From a virus, in the IMG/VR virus record IMGVR_UViG_3300025632_000064, positions 1-25,964 of that record: a stretch of 25,964 bases of DNA; one strand, given 5' to 3'. Position numbers and translations under genes: made by a program. Positions 759 through 2,111 of the stretch are shown piece after piece. The notes beneath the pieces are model-generated. The model was not told where the DNA came from. It made no database searches and saw only the letters and a program-made list of their open reading frames with translations. Each line of letters begins with the position of its first letter. Positions within the stretch are counted from its first letter, which is position 1.

Positions 759-1483
759 TGAGCGAACTACAAAAAGCAATGGCCGAGGTGAACGATCTTA
801 ATCGCACCCACGGCGTCACGCAGCGCGGCGGCAAGAAATACACAGAGGTTTTTGTGCGCGTTGAAGCATTCCGCAAAGCATTCGGAACCGATCACGGGAT
901 CAATACCGAGATCCTAACAGACGATGGCAAACGAGTTGTGGTCAAAGCATCGATCACCAACAGCGCCGGGATGGTTGTTGGCTCCGGCATGGCTGAAGAA
1001 ATCAGGGGCCAAGGTAACGTCAACAAGACAAGCGCCCTGGAGAACGCAGAGACCAGCGCCATAGGCCGCGCACTAGCTTCCATTGGCTTGCATGGTGGGA
1101 CATATGCCAGCCTCAATGAGATCGATGCTGTCCCGCGCAAGGCAGCAGCGCAAAGTCAACAGGCTCAATCTACGCAGCCGCCACCAGCACCACCCGCCGG
1201 TGATCTGCTCACACTGAAGAACCACATTGGACAGGAGAAGGGATCAGGTGACGCGCAAGAGTTTACCGCCAATCTCATCAAGCTCATTGCAGCCTATACC
1301 AAATTGGAAGCCACCAAGGAAGGGACCGTTATCCCGCCACGGGAGCGCATGACCTTGCTGCGTGAGTTGATCGAGCAAAACCAGCAGCAAATCGACAAGC
1401 TTTCCGATGGTTTCAAGGAAGAGATCGACAAACGATACAAGAATTGCCTCAAGATCCTGGGCGCACAGTTAGGAAAAGAATGA
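758..1483 (+). CDS. ERF-like single-strand DNA annealing protein
   Basis: 241 residues. The start is the ATG at 758, inside the preceding TAA (TAATG) and behind GTGAGGA, rather than an upstream ATG at 710 within the Gp157-like gene. The N-terminal core (about 1-125) is conserved-looking: 'KKYTEVFVRVEAFRKAFG', then 'GQGNVNKTSALENAETSAI' followed by GRALASIGLHGGTYASLNEID, resembling the ERF-type 'TSAIGxAL' segment of phage recombination mediators. A Pro/Gln linker (about 130-150) leads to a helical, charged C-terminal tail. Expected role: annealing of complementary strands during phage recombination or replication, usually with an exonuclease or SSB encoded upstream, which is not in the window. 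The neighbouring Gp157-like gene supports this. ERF versus another annealing family cannot be settled by eye. Confidence 0.65.
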   Translation: MSELQKAMAEVNDLNRTHGVTQRGGKKYTEVFVRVEAFRKAFGTDHGINTEILTDDGKRVVVKASITNSAGMVVGSGMAEEIRGQGNVNKTSALENAETSAIGRALASIGLHGGTYASLNEIDAVPRKAAAQSQQAQSTQPPPAPPAGDLLTLKNHIGQEKGSGDAQEFTANLIKLIAAYTKLEATKEGTVIPPRERMTLLRELIEQNQQQIDKLSDGFKEEIDKRYKNCLKILGAQLGKE

Positions 1484-1668
1484 TGGAGACCTGGAAACAA
1501 ATGAAAGCGCGTCAAAAGCGGGAGCTGATTGGCGTGGTTGAGGATCTGGCTGGACAAGTGACGCAAGTAAAAGCAGCGGAAAGCCTGGATATGTCGCAAG
1601 CCTTGCTCAGTGCCTTCTGCCGCAAGCACAGTATCACATGGGAGACAGACGGAAGGAAAAAGAAATGA
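1480..1668 (+). CDS. Small helix-turn-helix-like protein
   Basis: 62 residues, starting at ATG 1480 (or the adjacent ATG at 1483), both overlapping the stop of the annealing-protein gene and preceded by AGGAAAAG. The middle region 'VTQVKAAESLDMSQALLSAF' then CRKHSITW reads as a short helix-turn-helix: an Ala-rich first helix, a turn at 'LDMS' and a recognition-like helix. The C-terminus is basic (DGRKKK). A small transcription factor or DNA-binding accessory of the early operon is plausible. An ATGA overlap couples it to the next gene, which has a similar helix-turn-helix pattern. No family name can be assigned from sequence alone. Confidence 0.6.
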   Translation: MMETWKQMKARQKRELIGVVEDLAGQVTQVKAAESLDMSQALLSAFCRKHSITWETDGRKKK

Positions 1669-2111
1669 CCGGTAAAGATATTATCAAGTGCATCAAGGCA
1701 GCAGAAATGAAGCTGACAAAGAAAGAAGCATCTGCTCTTATGTCGATACCGTATAAAACTGTTGTTGAGATCGCAAAAAAATACGGAATAAAATTTATCG
1801 ATGGAAGGCAGAAAAGCGATGAACCAAGAAGGCAAGCAGGCATTGGCCCGAAGTCAACGTCAACTATCAATCATGATCGAGACTGCAAAAAAACAGAACC
1901 GGCACAACCTCAAGCAGCAACTCGAGAGCCTGTTCGCATTAGGCGAGATACTTCAAAGGGCCATTACAAAAGAAAGCTAAAGAATCGGTTTCGTGACATA
2001 CTTCAGAGCGATCTGGATTACGCCGTAAAGCACGAGTTAATCTACGCAGCCAAGTGGCAGGATCATCAGCGCAGCATAAAGAAAAAAACTAAGGTAGGGG
2101 GAACGCTATGA
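1665..2111 (+). CDS. Basic protein with N-terminal helix-turn-helix-like segment
   Basis: 148 residues from ATG 1665, which overlaps the upstream stop (ATGA) and follows GGAAGGAAAA; a start at 1638 within the preceding gene is less likely. Residues 1-48 (KLTKKEASALMSIPYKTVVE then IAKKYGIKF) look like a helix-turn-helix that pairs in style with the preceding small gene. Residues about 52-105 are low-complexity, Pro/Arg/Thr-rich and poorly protein-like. The last 45 residues ('RFRDILQSDLDYAVKHEL') are helical and basic. The weak middle coincides with a well-formed ORF in another frame (1819-1980), so this stretch may be constrained by overlapping coding. Function unknown; DNA binding is inferred only from the N-terminus. 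Confidence 0.6.
   Translation: MTGKDIIKCIKAAEMKLTKKEASALMSIPYKTVVEIAKKYGIKFIDGRQKSDEPRRQAGIGPKSTSTINHDRDCKKTEPAQPQAATREPVRIRRDTSKGHYKRKLKNRFRDILQSDLDYAVKHELIYAAKWQDHQRSIKKKTKVGGTL
1819..1980 (+). CDS. Candidate nested small gene in an alternative frame
   Basis: Lies wholly within the preceding gene but one frame forward. ATG 1819 follows a GGAAGG sequence with a spacer of about 10 bases; ATG 1801 in the same frame is an alternative start. The 53-residue product (MNQEGKQALARSQRQLSIMI... ending LQRAITKES) has the composition of a real soluble helical protein: alternating charged and hydrophobic residues with a Leu-rich amphipathic segment 'LKQQLESLFALGEILQRAI'. The host frame is low-complexity over the same interval. 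This is a reading from composition only; expression is not shown. Function unknown. Confidence 0.45.
   Translation: MNQEGKQALARSQRQLSIMIETAKKQNRHNLKQQLESLFALGEILQRAITKES

Follow-up and report, generated by a model that had tools for sequence, protein, structure and literature searches.

The DNA analyzed here, a virus record of 25,964 bases from IMG/VR (the window), very probably harbors a dual-coding pair of genes, in which the nested frame dominates and constraint on the linker of the larger product is mild at most. This reading is based on comparison of sequences. A single stretch of mRNA would be read in two frames, and the pair is conserved across a phage family. The larger (host) frame would encode a DNA-binding-like protein that comprises a helix-turn-helix (HTH)-like domain, a flexible linker and helices, to which longer relatives add another C-terminal domain. 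Within the linker-coding DNA, ATG 1819 and a ribosome-binding site of its own would start a helical hairpin of 53 amino acids in the +1 frame, presumably by internal initiation.

The host gene (1665..2111, plus strand) encodes 148 amino acids comprising an N-terminal HTH-like domain, a linker and C-terminal helices, as predicted. Its open reading frame (ORF) extends from 1638 to 2111 and gives 157 amino acids from ATG 1638 or 148 from ATG 1665. The duplex energy with an anti-Shine-Dalgarno motif was computed to be -5.7 before ATG 1665 and 0.1 before ATG 1638; the start at 1665, which is preceded by a putative Shine-Dalgarno sequence GGAAGG (1651..1656, plus strand), was therefore favored. A small HTH-like gene with weak profile matches is located upstream (1480..1668, plus strand) and overlaps the host start by four bases. 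At the other end of the host gene, a tiny ORF (2108-2218, 36 amino acids) overlaps its last bases; the C-terminal part of the product is hydrophobic and rich in glycine and alanine, and among nine window starts checked this ORF has the strongest Shine-Dalgarno-like sequence (-9.3). The nested gene (1819..1980, plus strand) encodes 53 amino acids followed by the stop codon TAA (1978-1980) and is read in frame +1 relative to the host gene. A preliminary description of this DNA had placed a nested ORF at 1801-1980 inside the 148-residue gene at 1665-2111, and the ORF listing confirmed this position. The whole overlap corresponds to host residues 52-105, and across it the host frame is rich in Arg, Pro, Thr and Lys.

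Scans of viral contigs returned 34 loci by the host protein and 35 by the nested protein; the first scans of viral contigs with profiles yielded the close clade only. In the window and 30 full-length loci, which carry 27 different IMG/VR sample numbers, both frames were intact, free of indels and free of stop codons, and 27 of the 31 window-clade rows were distinct. Identity to the window decreased to 83% for the host and to 88% for the nested protein. Two observations had been named beforehand as arguing against a nested gene. Stop codons in the nested frame of homologues were looked for in the window-clade rows and not found, and a vanishing of the compositional difference was not seen either, as the host frame of these rows, inspected by eye, stays rich in Arg, Pro, Thr and Lys.

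A distant set was obtained via a neighboring gene followed by profile searches inside its loci, and two further host scans added more. Distant host proteins showed about 17-41% identity to that of the window. A nested or host match at E 1e-3 was present in 264 loci, a collection that includes many repeat fetches of one contig and is not a census. The nested ORF was located wholly inside the host gene in frame +1 in 252 of them; 11 were cut by contig ends, and one (L132) carried a nested-like ORF without a host gene of this family. Among the 264 loci, 71 nested DNAs and 62 nested proteins (counted from stop to stop) are distinct. Besides contig-end truncations, no locus among the 264 combined an intact host with a broken nested frame. 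A scan with the nested alignment alone kept 80 of 85 relatives, of which 11 were already known and 69 had new identifiers; in 67 of these 69 loci the ORF was fully nested in a host homologue, and two were cut at contig ends. The nested-like ORF of L132 (4937-5104) overlaps an HTH-like gene at its 3' end only; by eye, this gene resembles the upstream one of the window. The ORF could be a free-standing relative, but support for it varies with the profile: it was matched at E 0.065 by one profile, at 1.4e-5 and 0.033 by others, and at 4.8e-17 when itself included in the profile.

Searches of phage records gave only short fragments at the DNA level (E 0.09 or worse), nothing better than E 2 for the host protein, and no relative with five further protein queries or the L132 ORF. 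Furthermore, GTDB genome contigs were covered by two pattern scans, made with A2 and A3, alignments of hosts other than the L190 kind, and these revealed no relative. All evidence is therefore derived from metagenomic contigs, and the phages bearing the pair are known so far from environmental sequence data only.

The surroundings of the pair were compared in eight loci. In each, a series of plus-strand genes ends with the pair or shortly after it, and minus-strand genes come next in seven of the eight, the L148 locus ending too early to tell. In the window, L157, L270 and L127, a few small plus-strand ORFs lie in between. One minus-strand gene of the window is similar to a GH108-annotated gene of Roseobacter phage CRP-810, the single phage record with a DNA match beside the pair (242 bases), and the neighboring gene 758-1483 matched PHROGs of unknown function in the libraries. 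Genes preceding the pair vary by lineage (L195, L208 and L270 versus the window, L157 and L127), which suggests that the two genes remained linked while their surroundings were exchanged. The distant host relatives that were aligned are longer (224-251 amino acids) and have an extra C-terminal domain absent from the window clade; from weak profile matches this domain looks winged-helix-like. The window-clade host thus lacks the C-terminal domain of L190, L148, L157 and others, and its remaining parts still vary in the manner of coding sequence.

Structures of both products were predicted. The nested protein was modeled as a two-helix hairpin (helices 3-25 and 29-52; pLDDT 93.4, pTM 0.74), in agreement with the earlier impression that this frame reads as a helical protein. 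The host model (pTM 0.34) has C-terminal helices and an HTH-like N-terminus; confidence is low at about residues 51-100. Mean pLDDT per ten-residue block was 41-65 for residues 61-100 and residues 61-77 were under 50; the low-confidence linker over the nested gene (host residues 60-100) corresponds to 1842..1964 on the plus strand. The description of the host frame as low-complexity over the nested ORF was also upheld, both by its Arg/Pro/Thr/Lys-rich composition and by the low-confidence prediction. Low pLDDT of the linker is consistent with disorder and is no proof of it. In these models, the compact product is the nested protein and the loose one is the host linker.

Neither protein had a convincing match in Pfam, PHROG, NCBIfam or PDB sequences. 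HTH matches of host relatives fell below curated cut-offs, and the Foldseek rows for the host model were mostly HTH or winged-helix proteins, all with E 1.3 or worse. The best PDB sequence match of the host profile was an Lrs14-like regulator (E 0.043), in the C-terminal part that is absent from the window. For the nested protein, PHROG 10889, annotated as 'anti-repressor', matched four of 41 members with a best E of 0.029, a lead only.

Both genes occur together in all uncut loci except L132, and the hairpin was therefore proposed as a modulator of the host regulator. The small protein may form a pair, either homotypic or with the host protein, and tune the regulatory activity of the latter, with the shared mRNA tying their dosages; we regard this as a tentative proposal with perhaps one chance in three. 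Rather unlikely, yet worth considering, is a Rop-like, RNA-binding role of the nested protein that is functionally unrelated to the host gene. Rop/Rom is a dimeric four-helix bundle that binds paired RNAs. The first 15 PDB rows of the Foldseek search with the nested model were Rop/Rom chains or variants (TM to query 0.67-0.83; PDB 1gto is presumably a Rop variant), and 41 nested proteins all share Arg 11, with Arg 14 and Arg 28 present in nearly all. However, all Foldseek E-values were 0.65 or worse, and the VIA-align Z-scores of 5.9-8.0 for Rop rows were equaled or exceeded by unrelated hairpins (up to 8.6); a Z under about 13 may reflect merely an arrangement common in helical bundles. No Rop was present among the PDB profile matches or the matches listed from the 41-member Pfam scan.

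The Rop/Rom proteins of ColE1 plasmids nevertheless share with the nested protein, as predicted, the short two-helix hairpin. Rop/Rom proteins are hairpins of about 55-63 amino acids, and the nested model agrees with this description; since such an arrangement is common, the agreement is weak. The matches listed contained no sequence relationship between the two, and short helical sequences are hard to link. Rop is not known as a nested gene. A more far-reaching form of the modulator proposal is somewhat more doubtful still: the pair may constitute an obligate dual-coded regulatory module in which a second gene effectively dictates the host linker, the nested product is older or dominant, the N- and C-terminal DNA-binding parts of the host became joined by translation across the nested gene in another frame, and the hairpin binds the host protein to time phage gene expression.

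Independently of its function, the hairpin would be a separate protein in the dual-coding reading, which attributes to it a start site of its own. The putative Shine-Dalgarno sequence GGAAGG noted earlier before ATG 1819 was confirmed at 1803..1808 (plus strand), 10 nt before this ATG, and the computed duplex energy of the stretch upstream was -5.5 kcal/mol. Two starts had been considered for the nested frame. ATG 1819 is supported, as its position is common to most distant lineages; ATG 1801, which would give an in-frame extension (1801..1818, plus strand; 59 amino acids in total) that is open in the window clade, is not shared in this way and was disfavored. The sequence upstream of the nested ATG is purine-rich and Shine-Dalgarno-like, and weak in some lineages. 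Mean duplex energy was -6.8 before the nested ATG of 18 representatives versus -2.6 before 2280 other plus-strand ATGs of the same loci, these controls including real starts of other genes. Pairing was weak in L204 (-2.8) and L218 (-3.5), no better than at about half of the control ATGs; in L151 and L132, a quarter of the other ATGs pair as well as the nested start. L198, L200 and L201 lack the usual ATG and have an in-frame ATG upstream instead, with AAGGAG 13 nt before it. At the sequence level, the nested gene of the pair apparently has its own start codon and ribosome-binding site. A promoter-like sequence (TTGAGA-18-TAAAAT, sigma-70-like) occurs at 1765-1794, just before the nested start; one was found versus 1.5 expected by chance.

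These start sites bear on the possibility that programmed frameshifting from the host frame produces an HTH-hairpin fusion and no separate small protein, which we regard as very unlikely. The +1 relation of the frames and the upstream A run permit such a shift. In the window, the nested frame is open from 1792 and closed upstream by TAA 1789-1791; a shift must therefore fall within 1792-1818. Frameshifting is opposed by the ATG with purine-rich upstream sequence that most lineages share and by the upstream ATG that substitutes for it where it was lost.

The nested frame as a chance ORF, an untranslated passenger of host conservation, was considered next in rank and is highly improbable. From the window alone it would be tenable: for a +1-frame ORF of at least 59 amino acids starting with ATG, codon permutation gave P 0.038 and synonymous shuffling P 0.28 (5000 shuffles each), and the length of the nested ORF alone is therefore weak evidence. 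In the window clade, the nested ORF from ATG 1801 was intact in 27/27 distinct sequences. Four alternative-frame ORFs (40-63 amino acids) in the gene 758-1483 served as control and were intact in 15, 21, 9 and 16 of 23 sequences, so that one of them (21/23) comes close to the conservation of the nested ORF. However, the control ORFs vary chiefly at codon position 3 of their host gene, whereas the nested ORF varies chiefly at its own position 3.

The same shift was evident from mean pairwise differences. In the window clade (27 sequences), values at host positions 1/2/3 were.034/.033/.150 before the overlap,.091/.029/.034 within it and.103/.038/.216 after it. In a second clade (19 sequences), they were.25/.20/.42 before and.32/.13/.14 within the overlap; values after the overlap run past indels and were unused. 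This clade was reduced from 33 rows to 19 by taking out L209, L210, L216 and L224-L227 by choice, L203 because of an N, and identical sequences. Variation within the overlap thus moves from host position 3 to host position 1, the equivalent of nested position 3. In this region the third host position ceases to be the variable one, contrary to the host flanks, which speaks against a chance ORF.

Simulations were scaled to the observed divergence, with kappa 3 assumed and omega chosen, not fitted. With host-only coding (three omega values) or with no coding, the observed nested identity was reached in 0/200 runs per setting in both clades, which speaks strongly against a chance ORF; a repeat of the window-clade simulation likewise gave no run reaching it. 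The closest setting combined nested omega 0.1 with host omega 0.5, that is, strong nested and mild host constraint, and reached the observed nested identity in 131/200 and 112/200 runs. Purifying selection on the nested frame therefore exceeds, in both clades, what the host frame explains.

Additionally, ten lineage representatives showed 44.8% identity in the nested frame versus 24.9% in the host frame, the nested value being higher in 45/45 pairs; this comparison uses the nested-protein alignment, which favors the nested frame. The 41-row nested alignment A6 was made without L229, L230, L111, L132, L224, L225, L226, L227, L216 and identical proteins. The third forward frame contained stops in 41/41 rows; the one row of 41 flagged in each coding frame is taken to be L203, which holds an N. 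As to which frame is the older, codon usage made no distinction (mean log RSCU 0.04 in the overlapped part of the host, -0.03 in the nested frame and -0.07 in the host after the overlap), and L132 was left aside in judging the order of events. The suggestion of a truly nested gene is thus borne out by family-wide conservation, the codon-position shift and the simulations.

The preliminary description had also raised the possibility that the host frame is the passenger over part of its length. The overlap is indeed at most mildly constrained in the host frame and predicted with low confidence. Host-frame identity was reached in 21/200 runs (second clade) and 36/200 runs (window clade) at omega 0.1/0.5, in 73/200 and 31/200, respectively, when the host was merely kept open, and in 1/200 and 4/200 when nested constraint was added to an open host. 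Considered by itself, the overlapped part of the host frame would also fit an absence of constraint at the amino-acid level in these simulations. On the other hand, it contains no stops, and both flanks look coding: nested-only coding at omega 0.1 would be expected to leave host stops in 7.4/27 and 12.9/19 rows, and none were observed. From the variability of position 3 in the flanks and the lack of stops in either clade, the host frame itself appears to be coding. When constraint was compared in both frames, as had been recommended, position differences and simulations agreed that the nested frame dominates the overlap and that host constraint is at most mild.

Equally improbable as a chance ORF is a constraint exerted by an RNA or DNA element, such as a structure or binding site, instead of a second protein. 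In favor of such an element, the overlap shows unusual conservation at the third host position. However, conservation has a period of three bases that follows the nested frame (identity 0.52, 0.66 and 0.39 at its codon positions 1, 2 and 3), the protein family encoded by this frame has a fold predicted with confidence, and no Rfam family reached the gathering score in 1400-2600, where one match was listed (E 0.68). Finally, a sequencing or assembly indel fusing two ordinary adjacent genes, for which the seven-A runs at 1775-1781 and 1887-1893 would offer a site, can practically be dismissed, and with it the one-base sequencing error proposed earlier, as the window and the 30 full-length loci from 27 sample numbers share both frames without indels and distant relatives have the same arrangement.

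With the dual-coding pair comes a family of small proteins for which the libraries searched gave no convincing match; it offers 62 distinct nested proteins, with host proteins down to about 17-20% identity with that of the window. The pair may provide a clean natural system for the sharing of constraint between frames, in which the nested frame prevails and the weakly constrained partner is the host linker. Annotation pipelines usually exclude long overlaps, as stated in the available parts of PMC8665328 and PMC5810103. The pair suggests that low-complexity linkers of phage proteins should be checked for hidden genes.

Nested phage genes on the same strand are already known, namely Rz/Rz1 and E/D. 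The E protein of PhiX174 has a lysis function. Its gene is located inside gene D, according to the accessible text of PMC8227390, and is an internal overlap in a phage as is the pair described here; the proteins are unrelated, and the PhiX174 genome is much smaller. In lambda Rz/Rz1, a small gene lies wholly inside another one on the same strand in frame +1 in a double-stranded DNA phage, as in the window; both products act in lysis, Rz1 as a proline-rich outer-membrane lipoprotein and Rz as an inner-membrane protein (PMC6139136, available sections). Unlike Rz1, the nested protein of the window has no Cys and hence no lipobox cysteine, the host is DNA-binding-like, and the confidently predicted fold is on the nested side. 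Two overlapping genes with exclusion activity were described for Pseudomonas phage Fc02 (PMC9936078, in the part available); they represent a functional phage overlap as proposed here, and no link to this family was seen in that text. Among the literature matches listed, no description was recognized as this pair.

The accessible part of PMC8227390 reports that +1 overlaps predominate, even more so among internal ones, and that disorder of a product has been proposed to relieve overlap constraint in eukaryotic viruses. That text treats mainly small eukaryotic viruses, whereas the pair belongs to phages and the partner that looks disordered is a linker within the larger product. A compact nested protein opposite a loose host linker, as predicted here, is in line with this proposal.
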